The notes beneath the pieces were generated by a model. That model made no database searches and had not been told where the DNA came from. It saw only the letters and a program-made list of their open reading frames with translations. Positions 1 through 9,301 of a DNA stretch of 9,895 nt are shown here, piece by piece; within the stretch, counting starts at the first letter, position 1, and every line of letters begins with the position of its first letter. The translations under genes were made by a program, and so were the position numbers. The stretch is from assembly GCA_900754605.1 (NCBI GenBank), contig CAAEDK010000188.1:1-9895 (forward strand). Reading direction: 5' to 3'. The DNA comes from an uncultured Oscillospiraceae bacterium (lineage in GTDB: Bacteria > Bacillota_A > Clostridia > Oscillospirales > Oscillospiraceae).

Positions 1-701
1 CGGCTGAGCCATGGACAGAAGCACATTGGACAGAAACTAATATCGCCGCAGAGCTTGTAGCTATTTATACGGCCTTGTCGAATAAGGCGTCTGGCGGGTA
101 TGGATTAGGCACAGCTGCTACCTACATTCCAGACCTGAATGATGCCACAAAAAACGGATGGTACATGAATGCTGCGGGTGGAGAAGCCGTGCATGCTCCG
201 GACAATGTTGCTGGTTGGCTTGTACTGGTGTGCGCATACTCTGATGAGATTGTGTTTCAAACTGCATATCGGTATGGGAGTGCCGAGGGCTTAATAAGTG
301 CTCAGCGAGCCCATCACAATTTTTTCGGGGGGTGGCAGCCTTGGGAGTGGATTACCCCACAGATGGTGCCTGGAATCGAATACCGTACTGTGAAAAGAGA
401 TCATAATAAAGTGGTGTATGAAAAGACTGTGCAAACAGGCGCTCTTCCTGCTGGGGGAACCAAGTCCATAGCGCATGGCGTTTCAGATATTGGCCTTCGA
501 CTTACAATTCGGTGTGCCTTTGATAACGATGGTAACAACCTTGTGGGCAATCCAGGGATTGCAGGGATATTGGTGGACCAAGACAATATTATCATCACAA
601 CGACAGAGGAATACGGGACTTCTTATGGAGACGGCACTTCTAATTCATGGGTATCTATCGCATACACAAAAAACACTATTCCTCGGGCTTCCAATATTTG
701 A
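1..701 (+). CDS. Phage tail fibre / receptor-binding protein, expressed C-terminal part (5'-truncated by window)
   Basis: The reading frame is open from base 3 and runs through to a stop at 699-701, so the N-terminal stem lies left of the window. A TTG at 75 should not be taken as the start: the frame upstream codes sensible protein (…ELVAIYTALSNKA…) and no ribosome binding site precedes it. The visible part has a GLGT turn, then a knob-like region with NGWY, VHAPD and WEW-TPQM motifs (the pattern of pyocin-knob-type fibre domains), then an EYRT segment and a divergent tip ending NTIPRASNI. By family analogy it binds the bacterial surface. From base 72 onward the gene lies inside a putative invertible segment, and a homologous alternative C-terminus lies head-on at 1326-676; the two coding ends overlap by 26 bp at 676-701. 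The fibre assignment rests on motif recognition and on its position before the lysis genes. Confidence 0.8.
   Translation, partial: AEPWTEAHWTETNIAAELVAIYTALSNKASGGYGLGTAATYIPDLNDATKNGWYMNAAGGEAVHAPDNVAGWLVLVCAYSDEIVFQTAYRYGSAEGLISAQRAHHNFFGGWQPWEWITPQMVPGIEYRTVKRDHNKVVYEKTVQTGALPAGGTKSIAHGVSDIGLRLTIRCAFDNDGNNLVGNPGIAGILVDQDNIIITTTEEYGTSYGDGTSNSWVSIAYTKNTIPRASNI
72..89 (+). repeat. Left inverted repeat / crossover site
   Basis: The sequence is GCCTTGTCGAATAAGGCG. It pairs exactly with the right copy on the opposite strand. Internally it reads GCCTT, a 7-nt asymmetric centre GTCGAAT, then AAGGC. That is the usual layout of a tyrosine-recombinase core: two short inverted arms around a 6-8 nt strand-exchange spacer. 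It lies within coding sequence and encodes A-L-S-N-K-A. Weaker similarity continues into the cassettes because both encode GG-(Y/F)-GLGT. Confidence 0.85.
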
Positions 702-1326
702 GTTTCAGAGTAAAGGTTTGTCCAACGTTACGTTTCGACGCAACCGTAACAATAAATGCTCCAACCTCTGAGTTTTGGATAAACATTCCAAGATAGCTCT
801 CGTCCGATAAGTTTGCATCACCGCCAAACACTCCAGGCACTTGAGAACCAGCAACATCAAGAACTCCAGAAGCTTCAATCATTCTAACAGGGCCGATATA
901 ATTTGGGATTTGAATGGTCAACTGCTTTGATGCATTATCTGGGTAAGCGCCGCCGGATACAGCCATCACATATACAGAATTGCCTTTCCACTTCTCTGCT
1001 GTTCGATATTCAACACCAAGCATCATAGGTGGCGTTACCCACTCAAAGTCAGACCATCCATCGTAATATATCGAGTGATGCCAACGGATGACATGCCGCC
1101 CTTTTCCGTTAGACGGAGCGATAGCATAAAAGTCCTGACGAATTACATCGGTTGCAAAGGTGGTTACATGACACCACCACTGACCTCTATCAGGAGCATG
1201 GACACTGTCTCCGGTAAGAATATTGAAGTACCAGCCGTTAGTCAACGCCTGATTGTAATCCTCAATCAGTTTAGAGTTAGTCCCCAATCCGAAGCCACCA
1301 GGCGCCTTATTCGACAAGGCTGCCAT
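676..1326 (-). CDS. Alternative (silent) tail fibre C-terminal cassette, inverted
   Basis: This minus-strand frame encodes a second fibre C-terminus homologous to the expressed one. Both begin with ALSNKA-(S/P)-GG-(Y/F)-GLGT, share NGWY and VHAPD, and share a W-x-x-(F/W)EW-(I/V)TP-x-M motif followed by G-(V/I)-EYRT. The tip then diverges completely and ends KYWKPEE. The cassette begins at the right inverted repeat (1303-1320), whose 18 bases match the left repeat in the same reading frame. Inversion would therefore fuse it seamlessly to the constant stem. An ATG lies at 1326, but no Shine-Dalgarno sequence precedes it on the minus strand and a TAG stop lies a short way upstream in the same frame. 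In the orientation shown it is best read as an unexpressed cassette, not a gene with its own start. Confidence 0.75.
   Translation of the reverse strand: MAALSNKAPGGFGLGTNSKLIEDYNQALTNGWYFNILTGDSVHAPDRGQWWCHVTTFATDVIRQDFYAIAPSNGKGRHVIRWHHSIYYDGWSDFEWVTPPMMLGVEYRTAEKWKGNSVYVMAVSGGAYPDNASKQLTIQIPNYIGPVRMIEASGVLDVAGSQVPGVFGGDANLSDESYLGMFIQNSEVGAFIVTVASKRNVGQTFTLKLKYWKPEE
1303..1320 (-). repeat. Right inverted repeat / crossover site
   Basis: On the plus strand this reads CGCCTTATTCGACAAGGC, the exact reverse complement of 72-89. The sequences outside the two repeats do not match, so the shared block ends sharply on the outer side, as expected for a recombination boundary. On the inner side the two cassettes remain partly similar. 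Confidence 0.85.
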
Positions 1327-1362
1327 ATCCAGATATACTGGGTGAAAAAGGAGGTAGCGGAT

Positions 1363-2328
1363 ATGGATGCGAAAAAGGAACTGATTGACCAGCTAAAAAC
1401 TATGGCGGGATGCTGTGAGAATGAGCTGAAAGTGCTTTTGGATGGATATTGCATCACTAGAGAGCCAGTACGAGAGAGAAGCAATCTCAAAAAACAGATT
1501 TCGGCGTTTTTGACGGCCAAAAAAATAGATGGTCTATCCCACAAAACCCTGAAAAACTATCGAGAAATGCTCACGTCGTTCCATTCTCAGGTGGACAAGC
1601 ATATAACGAAGATCACCACAGATGACATCCGGACCTACATCGGCTATTTAGCTGATGAGCGCAGGCTGAAGGACAGCAGTATCCAGACACACATCAACAC
1701 TTTGCGCTCCTTCTTTTCCTGGTTAGATATGGAGGACATTATTAAGAAAAACCCCATGCGGAAGATAAGGTCTCTCAAAATTGATCGCATGAAAGCTCGC
1801 CGTCCACTCAGCCCCGAAGAGTTAGAACAACTCCGAGACGGATGCTGCTCTTACAAGGAGAAGGCTCTTGTGGAGTTTCTGGTTTCTTCAGGTTGTCGCT
1901 TGAACGAGGTTACGGGGATACGAACCGATCAAATAGACTGGCAGAGCCGGAGTGTTGTAGTTCTAGGCAAGGGGCATAAAGAACGGACCGTGTATTTTTC
2001 TGTTCGAGCAAAACTAATGCTCCGCGAGTATCTGTCATGTCGGAAGGGCGGCGAAGCACTCTTTGCAAGCACCAGAAAGCCCTATGCTGCTATGTCTCCA
2101 AGAGCTGTTGAGAAAGCATTGCAGCGGATCGGAGAGAGGGCAGGAGAAACCAGGAGGATATATCCCCATCTGATGCGCCATACCTTCGCAACAAACGCCC
2201 TGCATGGGGGGATGGATATTACAACAATCCAGCACCTACTCGGCCATAGCGACCCCAAAACAACTTTAATTTATGCAGAGCTTAGACCAGATGCAATCCG
2301 CTATGCTTATGAGAAAGTAATAGCTTAG
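1363..2328 (+). CDS. Tyrosine recombinase, probable fibre-switch invertase
   Basis: This is a complete 321-aa phage-integrase-family recombinase. The N-terminal part (about residues 40-135) looks like a SAM-like core-binding domain. The catalytic domain (about 147-321) shows every active-site residue: Arg179 in SGCRLNEV, Lys203 in GKGHKER, His269 and Arg272 in HLMRHTFAT, His295 in LLGHSD and nucleophile Tyr304 in LIYAEL. It resembles the short XerC/XerD type. The start at 1363 is set by a strong AAGGAGGT site (1348-1355) seven bases upstream; the frame is open back to 1075, but that stretch crosses the inverted repeat and lies antisense to the fibre cassette. Its place between the fibre cassettes and the lysis genes, right beside a palindromic repeat pair, suggests it inverts the segment 72-1320. 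It is less likely to be the prophage integrase, which is normally next to the attachment site, but this cannot be excluded by sequence alone. Confidence 0.9.
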   Translation: MDAKKELIDQLKTMAGCCENELKVLLDGYCITREPVRERSNLKKQISAFLTAKKIDGLSHKTLKNYREMLTSFHSQVDKHITKITTDDIRTYIGYLADERRLKDSSIQTHINTLRSFFSWLDMEDIIKKNPMRKIRSLKIDRMKARRPLSPEELEQLRDGCCSYKEKALVEFLVSSGCRLNEVTGIRTDQIDWQSRSVVVLGKGHKERTVYFSVRAKLMLREYLSCRKGGEALFASTRKPYAAMSPRAVEKALQRIGERAGETRRIYPHLMRHTFATNALHGGMDITTIQHLLGHSDPKTTLIYAELRPDAIRYAYEKVIA

Positions 2329-2522: not shown

Positions 2523-2876
2523 ATGTTTGACATCACCACGATCATCGAAGCTGTTTTCATGCTCCTGGCGGCTATCATCACCGCCATTGTCATCCCCTAT
2601 ATCAAGAGCAAGACCACAGCTTCCCAGCAGGCTGAGATCAATGCTTGGGTGAAGATTGCCGTCACCGCTGCTGAGCAGATCTACACCGGCTCCGGCAAGG
2701 GTGAGGCGAAGAAAGCCTATGTGCTGAATTGGATCCGAGAGCATGGCATTACCGTTGACGATGAAAAACTGGATGCGTTGATTGAAGCCGCCGTATATGA
2801 ACTGACGAACAACGGCCTGCTTGCCATTGAGCAAGGTGTTATTGTCGGAGAGGATGATGGCCATGAAGCCGGTTGA
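2523..2876 (+). CDS. Phage holin, LLH-type
   Basis: This 117-aa protein has one hydrophobic N-terminal segment (about residues 7-27, IIEAVFMLLAAIITAIVIPY). It is followed by a charged, Ala-rich cytoplasmic region with WVKIAVTAAEQIY and a C-terminal helical part (AYVLNWIREHGI…LIEAAVYELN-like). This layout matches the LLH superfamily of holins common in Firmicute siphophages. Holins form membrane lesions at a set time and let the endolysin reach the wall. A TAAGGAGG site (2508-2515) seven bases before the ATG supports the start. The last 14 bases overlap the start of the endolysin gene in another frame, which indicates translational coupling. Confidence 0.8.
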   Translation: MFDITTIIEAVFMLLAAIITAIVIPYIKSKTTASQQAEINAWVKIAVTAAEQIYTGSGKGEAKKAYVLNWIREHGITVDDEKLDALIEAAVYELTNNGLLAIEQGVIVGEDDGHEAG

Positions 2877-3681
2877 TAGACTGCTGGCCACGGCCCGAGC
2901 CGAAATCGGCTACATTGAGAAGGAGACCAACGCCCATCTCGATGATAAGACGGCCAACGCCGGGGACGGGAACTGGAACAAATATGCCCGTGATCTGGAT
3001 GCCCTGGGTGTGGTCTACAACGGCAAGAAGAACGGCTATGCCTGGTGCGACATCTTCACGGACTGGTGCTTCATCCAGACCTTCGGCCTGGAACTGGGCC
3101 TGCAGCTGCTCTGCCAAGCCAAGAAGGGGATGGGGGCTGGCTGCTCCGGCTCCGCCAACTACTACAAGCAAAAGGGCCAGTTCCACACCAGCGGCCCGCA
3201 GCCCGGCGACCAGATCTTCTTCACGAAAGACGGCGGCAAGACCATGTATCACACCGGCATCGTGGAGAAGGTGGCCGGAGGCCGGGTGTACACCATCGAG
3301 GGCAACACCAGTTCCGCAGCAGGTGTCGTAGAGAACGGCGGCTGCGTCCAGGACAAGAGCTATCCCCTGACCTACAGCAAGATCGGCGGCTATGGCCGCC
3401 CCGATTTTTCCATTGTACCGGAGGAGGACAACGATATGGATCAAACCAAGTTCAACGAGATGTTCGTCGCTGCGATGGCGGAGCACCGAAAGCAGCTCCG
3501 TGACAACGACAGCGGTGACTGGAGCCAGAAGGCCAGAGAGTGGGCCGTGTCCGTGGGCCTATTCGCGGGCAACGGCACCCTGGACAACGGGGAGCCGAAC
3601 ATGATGTGGGAGGACTTCCTAACCCGCGAACAGGCCGCCCAGCTCTTCTATCGTTTCGCCTTGGAGCATGGGCTGGCGTGA
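2863..3681 (+). CDS. Phage endolysin: CHAP amidase/peptidase with C-terminal SLH-like wall-binding repeat
   Basis: The product is 272 aa from the chosen ATG. Residues about 1-185 form a CHAP (NlpC/P60-like) hydrolase: the nucleophile is probably Cys62 in GYAWCDIF, the histidine His130 in TMYHTGIVE, and the polar residue lies in the following IEGNTS (146-148). A linker rich in acidic residues (about 186-195) leads to a C-terminal part (about 196-272) with WAVSVGLFAGNG and a DFLTREQAAQLFYRFA helix, which resembles a single S-layer-homology repeat and probably anchors the enzyme to the wall. Such enzymes cut peptidoglycan peptide or amide bonds at lysis. Three in-frame ATGs (2854, 2857, 2863) exist; 2863 has the best spacing to GGAGAGG (2847-2853). 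The gene overlaps the holin. Confidence 0.85.
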   Translation: MKPVDRLLATARAEIGYIEKETNAHLDDKTANAGDGNWNKYARDLDALGVVYNGKKNGYAWCDIFTDWCFIQTFGLELGLQLLCQAKKGMGAGCSGSANYYKQKGQFHTSGPQPGDQIFFTKDGGKTMYHTGIVEKVAGGRVYTIEGNTSSAAGVVENGGCVQDKSYPLTYSKIGGYGRPDFSIVPEEDNDMDQTKFNEMFVAAMAEHRKQLRDNDSGDWSQKAREWAVSVGLFAGNGTLDNGEPNMMWEDFLTREQAAQLFYRFALEHGLA

Positions 3682-4095: not shown

Positions 4096-4854
4096 ATGGA
4101 AAGTTTCATTGGATGGATCGGCGGCAAGCGCGCCCTGCGTAGAGCCATTTTAGAGAGGTTTCCCGATGATGAGGTGGGGCGCTATATTGAGGTGTTCGGC
4201 GGTGCGGCCTGGGTGCTTTTCGCCAAGGAAAAGAAGGCAAACCAGCTGGAGGTGTACAACGACATCAACGGCAACCTGGTCAACCTTTTTCGCTGTGTGA
4301 AGTACCACTGCGGGGAGCTGCAGCGTGAGCTGGAATGGATGCTGACCTCGCGGGAACAGTTCTTTGACTGCCTGACGCAGTACCAGGCGCGCGGCCTGAC
4401 GGACATCCAGCGCGCCGCCCGCTTCTTCTATGCAGTCAAGATCAGCTTCGGATGTGATAACCGCACCTATGCCACCAGCTCCAAGCAGATCGACAACGCT
4501 GTGGAGTATATGACCAAGGTACAGGAACGGCTCCGGGGCGTGAACATTGAAAACAAGGACTTTGCAGACCTTATCAAGGTCTACGACAGGCCCACGGCCC
4601 TGTTTTACCTCGATCCGCCCTATGTGGACACTGAGAAGTATTATGACAGTCCCTTCTGTGCCCAGGATCACCAACGCTTAAGAGAGGTTTTAGGCCATAT
4701 AAAAGGCCGTTTCATCCTCTCCTACAACGACCACCCGCTGGTGCGTGAACTGTATGCGGACTACCGCATCGAGGAGGTCACGCGCACCTCCACGCTGGCC
4801 GGGAGTGGAAACAATCAGACGCAGTATGCGGAGCTGATTATCCGCAATTTCTAA
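4096..4854 (+). CDS. D12-class DNA adenine-N6 methyltransferase (Dam-like), phage-borne
   Basis: The 252-aa protein transfers a methyl group from S-adenosylmethionine to adenine in DNA. It has the D12-class order: GWIGGKR at 6-12 (N-terminal SAM-binding motif), FGGAAWVLF at 34-42 (motif I), NDINGNLVNLF at 55-65, and the catalytic DPPY at 173-176 in YLDPPYVDTEKYY, followed by FILSYNDH. The length is typical for the class. AAAGGA at 4081-4086 serves the ATG; CTTCAT (4069-4074) could pair with ATGAAG (4086-4091) around it. No restriction enzyme gene lies beside it, so it is an orphan methyltransferase, plausibly protecting phage DNA or altering regulation. The recognition sequence cannot be read from the protein; GATC is only a possibility. 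Confidence 0.9.
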   Translation: MESFIGWIGGKRALRRAILERFPDDEVGRYIEVFGGAAWVLFAKEKKANQLEVYNDINGNLVNLFRCVKYHCGELQRELEWMLTSREQFFDCLTQYQARGLTDIQRAARFFYAVKISFGCDNRTYATSSKQIDNAVEYMTKVQERLRGVNIENKDFADLIKVYDRPTALFYLDPPYVDTEKYYDSPFCAQDHQRLREVLGHIKGRFILSYNDHPLVRELYADYRIEEVTRTSTLAGSGNNQTQYAELIIRNF

Positions 4855-4951: not shown

Positions 4952-5221
4952 ATGATAAAAAATCACCTATCTCGAATCCTCGGAGAGCGCAGATGGACAC
5001 GCGCAAAACTTGCCCGGCTGACCGGAATCCGTCCGTCCACCATCGGAGACCTTTACAATGAGATGTCGGAGCGGGTGTCTTTCGATCAGCTGGACAGGAT
5101 TTGCGAGGTCTTGGACTGTAGCATTTCTGACCTGCTGGAATACATACCGAACCAGCAGCGCAGGACTGGCAAAGACCTGATTCTGGAGGAGCACGGAAAC
5201 CGCAGGAAAAACCGACCCTAA
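4952..5221 (+). CDS. Small XRE/Cro-CI-type helix-turn-helix regulator
   Basis: This 89-aa protein is almost wholly one DNA-binding domain of the short Cro/CI (HTH_26-like) type: helix-turn-helix around residues 15-40 (TRAKLARLTGIRPSTIGDLY), then FDQLDRICEVLDCSISDLLEY, a pattern typical of the family. The basic tail (about 70-89) is unstructured-looking. AAAGGGG at 4938-4944 can act as the ribosome binding site. The site may be partly masked, since GCCCC (4911-4915) can pair with GGGGC (4941-4945). It is the last gene before a strong terminator and a change of gene content. It might control late or lysogeny functions, but no partner is visible. Confidence 0.8.
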   Translation: MIKNHLSRILGERRWTRAKLARLTGIRPSTIGDLYNEMSERVSFDQLDRICEVLDCSISDLLEYIPNQQRRTGKDLILEEHGNRRKNRP

Positions 5222-6352: not shown

Positions 6353-6387
6353 AACCCGGCGCCGGGAATTCCCGGCGCCGGGTTTTT
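6353..6387 (+). terminator. Double-palindrome terminator between convergent genes
   Basis: Two copies of the self-complementary CCCGGCGCCGGG are separated by AATT, so the whole block is a perfect palindrome with 14-bp arms, followed by five T (6383-6387) on the plus strand. It lies between the plus-strand permease and the minus-strand ATPase. The T-tract favours termination of plus-strand transcripts; on the minus strand only two T follow, so bidirectional action would be weaker. Confidence 0.8.
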
Positions 6388-6496: not shown

Positions 6497-8383
6497 TCAC
6501 AGCTTTTTGACGAACAGCGCACGGATGGCGTTGAGCACTGCCAGGATCATCACACCCACATCGGCGAAGATGGCCAGCCACATATTGGCGAACCCCAGGG
6601 CCACAAGCACCAGACACGCCAGCTTGATGCCGATGGCAAAGACGATGTTTTCATAGACGATCCGCAGGCACTTGCGGGAGATCCGGATGGCCTTTGCGAT
6701 TTTGGCGGGATCGTCATCCATCAGGACCACGTCGGCGGCCTCGATGGCGGCATCGGAGCCCATGGCGCCCATGGCAATACCGATATCCGCCCGGCTGAGG
6801 ACCGGGGCGTCGTTGATGCCGTCCCCCACGAAGGCCAGCTTTCCCCGCTCAGAGTTGTCCAGCAGCAGTTCTTCCACCTTTTCCACCTTTCCAGCGGGGA
6901 GCAACTCGGCGTAAACCTGATCGATGCCCAGGGACTGGGCCACCTGGTCTGCCACCGGCTTGGCGTCGCCGGTGAGCATGACGGTCCTGTGGACACCGGC
7001 GGCCCGCAGGGCCTGGACAGCCTCCCGGGCGTGGGGTTTCACCACGTCGGAGATGACGATATGTCCGGCATACTTCCCGCCGACGGCCATGTGGATGATG
7101 GTGCCTACGCTGTGACAGGGGATGTACGGCACGCCCAGCCGGTCCATCAGCTTGTCGTTGCCGGCGGCTACCTCCACGCCGTCCACTTTGGCGATGACGC
7201 CGCTGCCGCTGATCTCCTGAACATCCGTCACCCGGCTGCGGTCGATCTCCCGGCCATAGGCCCGCTGCAGGCTTTTGCTGATGGGGTGGCTGGAAGCGCT
7301 CTCCGCCAGAGCGGCGTACTCCACCAGCTTCTCGTTCTCCATCTCATGATGGTGGATGCCGTTGACCTCAAACACGCCCTGGGTCAGGGTGCCGGTCTTG
7401 TCAAAGACCACCGTTTTGGTTTGGGACAGAGTCTCCAGATAGTTAGAGCCCTTTACCAGTACGCCGGCGTTGCTGGCCCCGCCGATGCCGGCAAAGAAGC
7501 TGAGAGGGATGCTGATGACCAGAGCGCAGGGACAGCTGGCCACCAGGAAGGTGAGGGCCCGGTAGACCCAGACGCTCCAGCCGGCGGGCAGGCCCAGAAG
7601 GAGCGTCCGGGCCAGAGGGACCAGGATGGCCAGGGCCAGGGCGGCGAAACACACGGCGGGGGTATACACCCGGGCGAACCGGGAGATGAAGTCCTCCGAC
7701 CGAGACTTGCGGGAAGAGGCGTTCTCCACCAGGTCCAGGATCTTGGACACCGTGGACTCGCCGAATTCCCGGGTGGTACGGATTTTCAGCAGCCCGGTCA
7801 TGTTGACGCAGCCGCTGATGATCTCGTCCCCCTCCCGGACCTCCCGGGGCAGGGACTCGCCGGTGAGGGCGGCGGTATTCAGGGTGGAGGCGCCCTCCAC
7901 CACAGTGCCGTCGATAGGAACCTTCTCGCCGGGCTGGACCACAATAACGGTGCCGATGGACACCTCGTCCGGGTCTACCTGCTCCAGCTTCCCGTCCTGC
8001 TCCACATTGGCGTAGTCCGGGCGGATGTCCATCAGCTCACTGATGTTCCGGCGGCTCCGGCCTACTGCATAGCTCTGGAACCACTCGCCGATCTGATAGA
8101 ACAGCATGACGGCGATGGCCTCGGTGTAATCCCCGCTCCGCTCGTACAGGGCCAGGGCAATGGCGCCCACAGTGGCCACGGCCATCAGGAAGTTCTCGTC
8201 GAACACCTGGCGGTTTTGGATGCCCTTCAGGGCCTTTCGCAGGATGTCGTAACCTGCGATCAGATAGGGGATCAGGTACAGCCCAAACCGCATCCAGCCT
8301 GTGACGGGGAGAACATGCAGGACAGCCAGCAGGGCCGCCGCTGTCAGAATGCGGATCAGCATGATTTTCTGCTTTTTATTCAT
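6497..8383 (-). CDS. Heavy-metal P1B-2-type ATPase (Zn/Cd/Pb exporter) without N-terminal metal-binding domain
   Basis: This 628-aa pump uses ATP to move metal ions out of the cell. Motifs in order: TGES (174-177, actuator), CPC (284-286, metal site in the membrane), DKTGT (328-332, phosphorylated Asp), SSHP (364-367, HP motif), TGDAK (471-475) and GDGINDAP (520-527). The last membrane segments carry GIK and FADVG, the Lys and Asp typical of the Zn/Cd/Pb group (ZntA/CadA); a copper pump would show other residues there. The protein begins directly at the first membrane helix, so the usual HMA domain is missing; a separate HMA protein is encoded just upstream. An ATG at 8383 with GGAAG about nine bases before it is preferred; a GTG at 8392 would add three residues. 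GC content is clearly higher than in the prophage genes. Confidence 0.92.
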   Translation of the reverse strand: MNKKQKIMLIRILTAAALLAVLHVLPVTGWMRFGLYLIPYLIAGYDILRKALKGIQNRQVFDENFLMAVATVGAIALALYERSGDYTEAIAVMLFYQIGEWFQSYAVGRSRRNISELMDIRPDYANVEQDGKLEQVDPDEVSIGTVIVVQPGEKVPIDGTVVEGASTLNTAALTGESLPREVREGDEIISGCVNMTGLLKIRTTREFGESTVSKILDLVENASSRKSRSEDFISRFARVYTPAVCFAALALAILVPLARTLLLGLPAGWSVWVYRALTFLVASCPCALVISIPLSFFAGIGGASNAGVLVKGSNYLETLSQTKTVVFDKTGTLTQGVFEVNGIHHHEMENEKLVEYAALAESASSHPISKSLQRAYGREIDRSRVTDVQEISGSGVIAKVDGVEVAAGNDKLMDRLGVPYIPCHSVGTIIHMAVGGKYAGHIVISDVVKPHAREAVQALRAAGVHRTVMLTGDAKPVADQVAQSLGIDQVYAELLPAGKVEKVEELLLDNSERGKLAFVGDGINDAPVLSRADIGIAMGAMGSDAAIEAADVVLMDDDPAKIAKAIRISRKCLRIVYENIVFAIGIKLACLVLVALGFANMWLAIFADVGVMILAVLNAIRALFVKKL

Positions 8384-8402
8384 GAGGTTCACTTCCGATC
8401 TG

Positions 8403-8419
8403 AGCCGCTCCGTGCGGCT
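8403..8419 (-). promoter_or_regulatory. Leader hairpin before the ATPase
   Basis: AGCCGC pairs with GCGGCT around a 5-nt loop, just upstream of the ATPase ribosome binding site. A perfect 10-bp palindrome TAAACGTTTA lies at 8430-8439. Together with the upstream terminator these make a structured intergenic leader; whether it holds a second promoter is unclear, as no good -35/-10 pair was seen. Confidence 0.3.
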
Positions 8420-8449
8420 GATAATTCAATAAACGTTTAATTGTTTTGG

Positions 8450-8480
8450 GAAAGAAAACACCCCGCCTCCGGAGGGGGTG
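8450..8480 (-). terminator. Intercistronic terminator between the HMA protein and the ATPase
   Basis: On the minus strand CACCCC…GGGGTG encloses a GC-rich inner part and is followed by GTTTTCTTT. It would reduce transcription into the ATPase, giving more metal-binding protein than pump from one promoter. Confidence 0.6.
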
Positions 8481-8498
8481 CTTTCCTGAAAAACGCGC

Positions 8499-8717
8499 TT
8501 ACAGGTAGATTTCGCAGTCGTCCTCCACCTTTTTGCAATTTCTGCGGACCTGCTCCATCACGGCCTTGGGGTCCTGCCCCTCCGCGAATTCCACGATCAT
8601 CTTCAGCGCCATGAAGTTCACGGTGGCGCTCTGGACGCCTTCGGTCTTCCGGGCGGCCTCCTCCATCTTGTTGGCGCAATTGGCGCAGTCCACATCGATC
8701 TTATAGGTTTTTTTCAT
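8499..8717 (-). CDS. Stand-alone HMA-domain metal-binding protein
   Basis: This 72-aa protein is a single heavy-metal-associated domain. The metal-binding pair Cys11 and Cys14 sits in DVDCANCANKMEE, and the rest follows the family pattern (EGVQSATVNFMALKMIVEF). Extra cysteines at 61 and 68 lie near the C-terminus. In related Zn/Cd ATPases this domain is often fused to the pump's N-terminus; here it is separate and probably passes metal to the ATPase or serves as a buffer. The start at 8717 is supported by an AAGGGAG site eight bases upstream; an earlier ATG at 8759 would overlap the operator region and lacks one. Confidence 0.88.
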   Translation of the reverse strand: MKKTYKIDVDCANCANKMEEAARKTEGVQSATVNFMALKMIVEFAEGQDPKAVMEQVRRNCKKVEDDCEIYL

Positions 8718-8749
8718 ATAAAAGTCTCCCTTCAGCAATTGAGCAAAAC

Positions 8750-8769
8750 GATTAAGCAATTATTTAATC
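8750..8769. promoter_or_regulatory. ArsR-type operator candidate
   Basis: GATTAAGCAATTATTTAATC has perfect 6-bp arms (GATTAA/TTAATC) and an AATT centre with two mismatched pairs between. It lies directly downstream of the -10 box for the HMA-ATPase operon, about where transcription begins. AT-rich imperfect palindromes of this size are typical SmtB/CadC-family operators. AGCAATT also occurs at 8734-8740 and 8755-8761. Confidence 0.55.
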
Positions 8770-8778
8770 TATGGTCTT

Positions 8779-8807
8779 ATCATACACGGGGCGGCCCCCC
8801 AAGTCAA
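8779..8807 (-). promoter_or_regulatory. Sigma-A promoter for the HMA-ATPase operon
   Basis: On the minus strand TTGACT (8807-8802), a 17-bp spacer and TATGAT (8784-8779) are close to consensus. The spacer contains a GC-rich palindrome (GGGGC-G-GCCCC, 8788-8798). The operator candidate lies just downstream, which fits repression relieved by metal. Confidence 0.75.
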
Positions 8808-8824
8808 CGGGGGAGGGAGAGAAT

Positions 8825-8858
8825 CTTCCGATTGGGCAAAAACTCCTTCCGATTGGGC
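8825..8858 (+). repeat. 13-bp direct repeat with 21-bp period
   Basis: CTTCCGATTGGGC occurs at 8825-8837 and again at 8846-8858. Start-to-start distance is 21 bp, two turns of the helix, so a protein could bind both on one face. The second copy runs into an 11-bp palindrome ATTGG-G-CCAAT (8852-8862). It lies between the divergent promoters. Confidence 0.7.
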
Positions 8859-8884
8859 CAATGCGGGGCGGCATATTTTCGCTC

Positions 8885-8913
8885 TTTCAGAATGGCGCGG
8901 GGTGTGGTAGAAT
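8885..8913 (+). promoter_or_regulatory. Candidate promoter for arsR-araC operon
   Basis: An extended -10, TG-G-TAGAAT (8905-8913), lies 26 bp upstream of the arsR start. The -35 position (8885-8890, TTTCAG) is poor, so the promoter may rely on the extended -10 or on an activator bound at the direct repeat upstream. Confidence 0.45.
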
Positions 8914-8938
8914 ACAAAACCAGAAGGAGGGACGACCG

Positions 8939-9301
8939 ATGGAAGAAAAGAAGCTGCCCCACGACCATGGACAGTCCATGGAGCGGGAGCTGGAACAGAT
9001 GCCCAGCGTGGACGATTTCCAGACAGTGGCTGACATCTTCAAACAGCTGGGGGACGGCAGCCGCATCCGGATTTTTTGGCTGCTGTGCCACTGTGAAGAG
9101 TGCGTCATCAACCTCTCCTCCATGGTGGAGATGAGCTCCCCGGCGGTGTCCCACCACCTGAAGCAGCTGAAGGCCGGCGGCCTGATCGTCAGCCGGCGGG
9201 ACGGGAAAGAGGTCTACTATAAGGCTGCCGAGACGGAGCGGGCCCAGCTGCTGCACCACATGATTGAGGCGATGGTGGAGATTGCCTGCCCCTCGGCGTG
9301 A
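8939..9301 (+). CDS. ArsR/SmtB-family metal-sensing repressor (CadC-like)
   Basis: The 120-aa winged-helix repressor probably binds DNA until a metal displaces it. A cysteine cluster, LLCHCEEC (Cys50, Cys52, Cys55), occupies the place of the ELCVCD motif in ArsR/CadC. The recognition helix lies at about 65-79 (MSSPAVSHHLKQLK) and the wing contains RRDGKEVYYKA. The C-terminal helix has His106, His107 and Glu114, possible residues of a second (alpha-5) zinc site. The start at 8939 follows AAGGAGG (8923-8929); longer in-frame starts are rejected because they run through the promoter. It is divergent from the HMA-ATPase operon, and its likely targets are the operator at 8750-8769 and its own promoter. 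Confidence 0.9.
   Translation: MEEKKLPHDHGQSMERELEQMPSVDDFQTVADIFKQLGDGSRIRIFWLLCHCEECVINLSSMVEMSSPAVSHHLKQLKAGGLIVSRRDGKEVYYKAAETERAQLLHHMIEAMVEIACPSA

Follow-up and report, generated by a model that had tools for sequence, protein, structure and literature searches.

Invertible tail fibre segments that use serine recombinases are known from phage Mu (Gin), P1 (Cin) and p15B (Min), the last of which undergoes multiple inversions (PMC6109161). A putative shufflon of a receptor-binding protein that uses a tyrosine recombinase, named Rin, has been described in Bifidobacterium prophages (Mavrich et al. 2018, PMC6109161), and tail inversions in bifidobacterial prophages are also described in PMC8705816. 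For the tyrosine recombinase Rci of R64, Katalinic et al. (PMC11852207) describe sites with a variable left arm, a 7-bp core and a conserved right arm. Prophage inversions around tail fibres have been reported in four species of Proteobacteria together with many inversions in Clostridia, and the portions of that report available to us do not mention a tail fibre switch in Clostridia (PMC5903667). Our literature search, which fell short on subscription papers and bioRxiv preprints, found no description of the fibre switch family presented below. Few accounts exist, to our knowledge, of phages of gut Clostridia that switch receptors.

Here we analyzed a stretch of 9,895 nucleotides (the window) from an uncultured Oscillospiraceae bacterium, which we consider very likely to contain a site-specific inversion switch in a prophage, run by an adjacent tyrosine recombinase. 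A sequence-only reading of the window had not known this locus as a described system; as far as our literature search shows, this holds for the branch to which it belongs, but not for the kind of switch, which is already described in Rin (PMC6109161). As in Mu, P1 and p15B, a predicted invertible segment with alternative tail fibre ends lies beside its predicted invertase, whereas the enzyme is a serine recombinase in those phages and a tyrosine recombinase with XerC/D-like domains in the window.

Two fibre tips face each other between exact inverted repeats

The window opens inside a fibre gene, and the N-terminus of the fibre lies beyond it. Positions 3..71 on the forward strand encode the 3' end of a constant fibre stem (the N-terminal part of the fibre, with the gene start outside the window), and the full-length stem is visible in the public protein P0122. 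P0122 and another public protein, P0129, match the window at every one of the 29 residues that end with the site-encoded part. The stem is followed by predicted recombination site 1 (72..89, forward), whose in-frame translation at the junction of stem and tip is ALSNKA, and by tip A (90..701, forward), the C-terminus currently joined to the stem. Tip B (676..1302, reverse) is a silent fibre C-terminus convergent with tip A, and it is joined to the stem in P0122. Predicted recombination site 2 (1303..1320, reverse) is an exact inverted copy of site 1 in the identical codon phase. The first parts of the tips align with 40% identity over 135 amino acids (E 4e-30), which bears out the earlier description of two homologous but divergent fibre C-termini facing each other. 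With an overlap of 26 bp between the 3' ends of the two tips, almost all of the segment is coding.

The 18-mer GCCTTGTCGAATAAGGCG occurs exactly at 72-89 on the forward strand and at 1303-1320 on the reverse strand, and its position is codon phase 0 in both reading frames, as the sequence-only reading had claimed for 18-bp inverted repeats in the same phase. The alignable arms of the repeats reach 41 nt at 83% identity, and the left arms of sites 1 and 2 differ at only one of seven positions. When up to three mismatches were allowed, the 18-mer was found at only these two places in the window. Two matches to it were obtained in 0 of 200 dinucleotide shuffles, a test of a pattern picked after being seen. 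In a cruder and weaker test, in which self-palindromes were counted, the longest inverted match in the first 2600 bases had a mean of 11.5 and a maximum of 18 over 200 mononucleotide shuffles. An Rfam scan of the window gave no matches. The site doubles as an LSNKA linker at the hinge between stem and tip, and flipping would therefore be seamless.

We examined the tip with an AlphaFold2 model built from 40 sequences, which had a mean pLDDT of 81. A helix spans residues 11-26 of the model, confidence is low at 28-34, a stretch that starts inside the site-encoded LSNKA (25-29), and a beta-rich body follows. Among solved structures, the only Foldseek matches with E below 0.001 were the C-termini of the R1 and R2 pyocin fibres (E 1.6e-5 and 2.4e-5; probability 1.00), with a weak superposition on the model (TM-score 0.28, rmsd 51.7). 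The next matches, the phi92 endosialidase and the phi11 host-recognition device, were above E 0.01. Several of the predicted viral proteins that match the model are named tail fibre or minor tail proteins. The model supports, without proving, a receptor-binding role for the fibre tip, and it suggests that the fibre would be the receptor-binding protein of the phage.

An intact tyrosine recombinase gene lies beside site 2

The gene at 1363..2328 on the forward strand is intact and codes for a tyrosine recombinase of 321 amino acids, the predicted invertase (PF00589, E 7e-34). Its ATG is separated from the repeat at site 2 by 42 bp, exactly the spacing given in the earlier reading. About 45 residues precede the SAM-like core-binding domain (48-123) of the protein. 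Its catalytic domain spans 149-307, and the chain ends at residue 321, 17 residues past Y304. In a set of 27 sequences (the window and 26 relatives with 67-98% identity), R179, K203, H269, R272 and Y304 are invariant and H295 is nearly invariant; we take these to be the six catalytic residues, with Y304 as the presumed catalytic tyrosine. Family models label the protein integrase or Xer-like, and its bit scores against the curated cut-offs were 188.6/335 for XerC, 169.4/329.6 for XerD and 221.9/220 for XerA_Arch, below the first two and marginally above the third.

Upstream of the recombinase is a promoter-like sequence, TCGACA-17-TATACT (1311..1339, forward), whose putative -35 box lies inside site 2 and whose -10 box lies in the fixed flank. 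AGGAGG, which resembles a ribosome site, is also found between site 2 and the gene. The boxes and their spacing are the same in an 82%-identical relative (L001/L179), and a promoter scan of the window gave three promoter-like sites against a shuffle mean of 3.7, which is no better than chance. We scored the boxes upstream of the recombinase out of 12 in 13 loci. A score of 10 with the -35 box in the site was obtained in 5 of the 13 (the window, L001/L179, L173 with a spacing of 18, L082 and L086), and a score of 10 with boxes outside the site in L175, L176 and L093; L087 scored 8, and L174, L081, L003 and L084 scored 7-8. Because the repeat is identical at both ends, inversion would leave the boxes of the window unchanged. 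Recombinase bound at the site could also repress its own gene.

The genes that follow, all on the forward strand, code for a holin (2523..2876; PF09682, phrog_6918), a CHAP endolysin (2863..3681; PF05257), a D12 N6-adenine DNA methyltransferase (4096..4854) and an HTH_26 regulator (4952..5221), which is the last recognised phage gene. The alignment to genome G024 stops at about 5286, with host-like genes beyond, and the window covers the right end of the phage only. The phage lies in the chromosome of a bacterium that probably lives in the gut. The methyltransferase and the regulator also occur in the related locus L093, where the recombinase is followed by an NlpC/P60-like gene (below the cut-off), the D12 methylase and the HTH_26 regulator. 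The record that holds L093, G672, carries GemA, Mor, Gp27 and Mu F; MuA (PF02914) was not found in this record, and rve (PF00665) was found in 0 of 8 related records. L173 has a MuA-type gene beside its array. A MuA-type gene in G609 was considered as part of the phage that carries L175 and rejected, since about 35 kb separate it from the L175 recombinase, in the direction opposite to the fibre genes. In phage Mu, the G segment is located near the right end together with a DNA-modification gene. A Mu-like setting for the window, with the switch where Mu has its G segment, is plausible.

Among the host-like genes, a perfect 32-nt palindrome (6353-6384, positioned by eye) followed by T's lies in the gap between an EamA transporter and a heavy-metal ATPase and is probably a terminator. 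A host-like heavy-metal cluster spans 6497-9301. It includes the heavy-metal ATPase, a P-type ATPase with no close counterpart among plasmids, and two products recognised by eye, one resembling a small metal-binding protein (8499-8759) and the other an ArsR-like regulator (8941-9301).

The family labels are consistent with a different role, in which the recombinase is the integrase of the prophage, the repeats are attachment-like or fossil sites, and orientations differ by rare rearrangement. In 11 of 11 viral records PF00589 finds one gene only, this recombinase, and the serine recombinase model PF07508 matches in 1 of 11, so that 10 of the 11 records, many of them fragments, show no second recombinase of either family. 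However, the recombinase gene lies among the late genes, with the fibre on one side and the holin on the other, and record G669 has a separate serine recombinase. In addition, the sites fall within fibre genes, in a phase that is the same wherever they recur. The record of L093 has Mu-like genes, although no MuA or rve was found in the records, and with such genes an integrase would be unnecessary. We therefore consider it very unlikely that the enzyme is the integrase, and favor the inversion switch.

Related recombinases share a site plan

Sites around related recombinases follow a common plan, in which a degenerate left arm is followed by a 6-nt core that is common within a locus and by the right arm TAAGGCG, replaced by TAAGGTG in L175 and in two of the three sites of L176. 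Seven cores were found in 13 loci (GTCGAA, GTCAAA, GTCCAA, GGAAAA, GGGTAA, GGCGAA and GTCCTC). The left 7 nt are 47% identical within loci (47 pairs) and 47% identical between loci (694 pairs), and the right arm is 96% identical within loci and 94% between them; the search pattern for the sites included the core and, for the most part, the right arm. The 100% identity of cores within loci is by construction and is not evidence. Most repeats detected free of the motif begin at the first core position or 1-2 nt ahead of it, the exceptions being the window (5 nt ahead), one L176 pair, and longer repeats in L085 and L089-L091. We dropped the idea that each locus has a private core separating neighbouring switches, because the window, L173 and L174 share GTCGAA, and L175 and L176 share GGCGAA. 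The last two are different fibre arrays with same-family recombinases on one chromosome, G609.

A strict site was present within 260 bp of the recombinase in 11 of 20 loci, giving 29 site rows, and in the other nine there was none. In 28 of the 29 rows the site encodes [S/A/G/N/T]-N-K-[A/V], with L preceding in 12, although N-K-A partly follows from the pattern sought. At least 100 open codons come next in the same phase in 25 of 29 rows, a count that includes one spurious L176 row; the exceptions are one L173 row, one L174 row and both L081 rows. The stop codon TAG directly precedes the site in 9 of the 29 rows, at sites not joined to a stem (in L173, L174, L175, L176, L082, L086 and L087). 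Three sites were counted in each of L173, L175 and L176, four in L174 (the same DNA as L092) and L093, and five in L084 and L085 when one right-arm mismatch was allowed; each of the remaining 6 of the 13 tabulated loci has two.

The right arm in L088-L091 reads TATGGCG or TATGACG. These loci contain recurring sites, often in steps of 30 nt, as far as about 1.8 kb upstream of the recombinase, and crossover at different copies there could also alter the length of the repeat stretch. L001/L179 has a single degenerate site about 60 bp upstream of the recombinase, in which the arms have changed together (GCTTT..AAAGC for GCCTT..AAGGC) and the core is kept. This site adjoins Mu-like Gp27, gpT and protease genes on the opposite strand, and no partner for it was found within 3.2 kb.

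We also measured the association of repeats and recombinase without a motif, as an exact 13-nt inverted repeat with one copy at most 250 bp upstream of the recombinase. Such a proximal repeat was present in 12 of 19 dereplicated loci with at least 50% identity and at least 1300 bp upstream, compared with 1 of 47 control anchors placed downstream within those loci. The counts were 3 of 27 against 3 of 52 controls at 38-50% identity, and 10 of 86 against 11 of 227 below 38%, the latter somewhat above control. Recombinases that repeat 300 bases of an earlier row, matches shorter than 200 residues and loci with less than 1300 bp upstream were dropped; L084, L085, L174 (presumed dereplicated) and L012 are missing from the list, which did not include L161-L172 and L179-L206. 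The qualifying match of L083 overlaps a site of another core. The 7 of 19 loci with no qualifying pair are L001, L081, L094, L177, L178, L003 and L091. The upstream sequence of L003, L091 and L178 is shorter than 2 kb, pairs at a greater distance are present in L081 and L091, and L001 keeps its one degenerate site.

The recombinase is rare in whole genomes. At E 1e-80 it was found in at least 5 of 297 genomes of the family and at least 2 of 394 of the order of G001, with G001 counted in both and with part of the first-look candidates scored in many genomes. A phage database of 50,697 records held no near DNA match to the window and no match to the fibre P0160; its best recombinase relative among the matches listed was 39.3% identical, and all 962 records were below 60%. 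No relative was found when viral_contigs was searched with a single recombinase or with P0129, and relatives were found when it was searched with the recombinase alignment A1.

Both orientations occur in public proteins and in related loci

Searching 5.8 billion proteins with tip B returned eight proteins at E 0.001. One of them, P0122 (332 aa), joins a stem identical to the 29 residues of the window to tip B, with 1 difference in 208 residues. The window fibre as query returned 41 proteins, including P0130, in which tip A (1 difference in 203) follows MAALSNKA, the start that precedes tip B on the silent side of the window. The stem is also joined to A in P0129, with 14 differences in 203. 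All four junctions that flipping would produce are present: stem with A (window), stem with B (P0122), silent A (P0130) and silent B (window). P0122 and P0130 are metagenome proteins with one contig listed each, and the state was read at the protein level.

In relatives, inversion was observed in the DNA. One related locus, with a recombinase 60% identical to that of the window, is present in the virus collection in three copies (L083, L084 and L085), each from an IMG data set with a different number. Between L084 and L085, blocks of 766 bp (99.0% identity), 375 bp (99.2%) and 183 bp (97.8%) are inverted, and the recombinase-side flank is colinear over 3.8 kb at 94%. Between L084 and L083, 563 bp are inverted at 100% identity, and 2.5 kb on the recombinase side are colinear at 98%; both flank comparisons concern that side, L083 and L085 beginning inside the array. 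One repeat of L083 is bordered on its first side by L084 sequence and on its second by a different part of L084 in reverse complement. L086 is inverted relative to L082 (75-94%) and to the Anaerotruncus locus L012 (82-84%), and the stem-side flank of L086 is 95% identical to that of L012. Where checked, the ends of inverted blocks fall in sites, except at contig ends. The sequence-only reading had proposed looking for both orientations among relatives and had argued that inversion would swap the predicted tip. Inversions were found among L084, L085 and L083 and among L086, L082 and L012, and together with the alternative state in P0122 and P0130 they support such a swap. With both states present in proteins and inverted blocks in relatives, the arrangement is not confined to a single orientation.

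The stem of the window was found with 11 C-termini. Among these 11 proteins, one of which (P0168) is short and may be broken, stem identity averaged 98.5% with a minimum of 92.7% (55 pairs), and the tips averaged 36% with a range of 20-68%. Judged by eye, P0124, which bears the stem of L087, has as its expressed tip a near-identical version of the silent tip of L087. With 7 of 13 loci holding 3-5 sites and 11 C-termini found on its stem, two states may understate the switch in the window. In 7 of 45 tip pairs one half is 88-99% alike and the other 26-39%, and because these halves meet near a conserved GVEYRT and not at the site, we conclude that tips are also remodelled by ordinary recombination. 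Two proteins are probably chimeric assemblies: P0123, in which the first half of tip B is fused to a PF13306-matching stretch, and P0010, in which the recombinase is fused, by eye, to a Mu transposase-like N-terminus.

The tip pairs that meet near GVEYRT show that homologous exchange acts too, and it could be argued that the tips were assembled by duplication and homologous exchange, with differences in orientation arising from RecA-type recombination and not from the neighbouring enzyme. Yet the exact blocks shared at the sites are mostly just 14-23 nt, the inverted blocks at 99-100% identity end in sites, and the proximal repeat is far more common beside close relatives of the recombinase than beside control anchors; we regard this origin of the orientations as highly improbable. 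It is scarcely credible that misassembly at the repeat produced the alternative joins: although the assemblies of P0122 and P0130 are listed with one contig each and P0010 and P0123 look chimeric, the exact repeat of 18 nt is shorter than the usual assembly word, P0122 and P0130 belong to 90%-identity clusters with 35 and 58 member sequences (cluster sizes alone), and the breakpoints of L083, L084 and L085, from three IMG data sets, lie in sites.

Discussion

In the inversion switch that we favor, the recombinase (1363-2328) would bind the sites at 72-89 and 1303-1320, and strand exchange in a short core between the site arms would flip about 1.2 kb. Flipping would place either tip A or tip B in frame behind the fixed fibre stem, and each phage particle would carry one of two presumed receptor-binding tips. 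The recombinase gene would stay outside the flipping segment, and the promoter-like boxes at and beyond site 2 would be unaltered by flipping. Catalysis by the window recombinase and the exact core are predictions from sequence, and the tip swap would be expected to change host range. The locus would be a small switch between two states, with its enzyme and sites defined. Both states occur in public data, and existing reads could be used to measure the switch directly. Related enzymes could also enlarge the set of invertases used as tools.

More tentatively, and with slightly less than even confidence, we suggest that the locus belongs to a large, apparently undescribed family of tyrosine recombinase fibre shufflons in Clostridia phages, many of them Mu-like, at the place of the Mu G segment. 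A common TAAGGCG right arm would go together with a core that drifts between lineages (seven in 13 loci), the in-frame linker might let these phages trade tips, and inversion might proceed without the C-terminal domain of Rci, perhaps by means of the conserved N-terminal stretch.

The window resembles Rin in several respects. Rin has an XerD-like tyrosine recombinase beside a receptor-binding protein gene, a constant N-terminus with C-termini that are swappable at short repeated sites, and arrangements that vary among sequences (PMC6109161); the window has a PF00589 gene 42 bp from the repeat and a stem found with A and B, and its arrangement varies at the protein level and that of relatives at the DNA level. 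In contrast, Rin uses the 11-bp rix site TTCCCTAACCC and an array of several tips in Bifidobacterium prophages (PMC6109161), whereas the window has the 18-bp repeat, two tips and two sites, and its family occurs in phages of Clostridia, some of them Mu-like.

R64 offers a second parallel, because Rci is also a tyrosine recombinase that swaps adhesin C-termini at asymmetric sites (PMC11852207), and the relatives here likewise keep the right arm, share a core within each locus and vary the left arm. The two differ in that R64 Rci acts on a plasmid pilus tip and has an extra C-terminal domain (PMC11852207), whereas the locus here would act on a phage fibre with an enzyme that ends 17 residues past its presumed catalytic tyrosine. 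A fixed right arm, a shared core and a free left arm would thus be the logic of the R64 shufflon in an enzyme lacking that domain, and so how inversion occurs without deletion becomes testable. As far as our literature search shows, what is new relative to the known systems is the setting in Clostridia phages, some of them Mu-like, the different site, and inversion at the DNA level among relatives.
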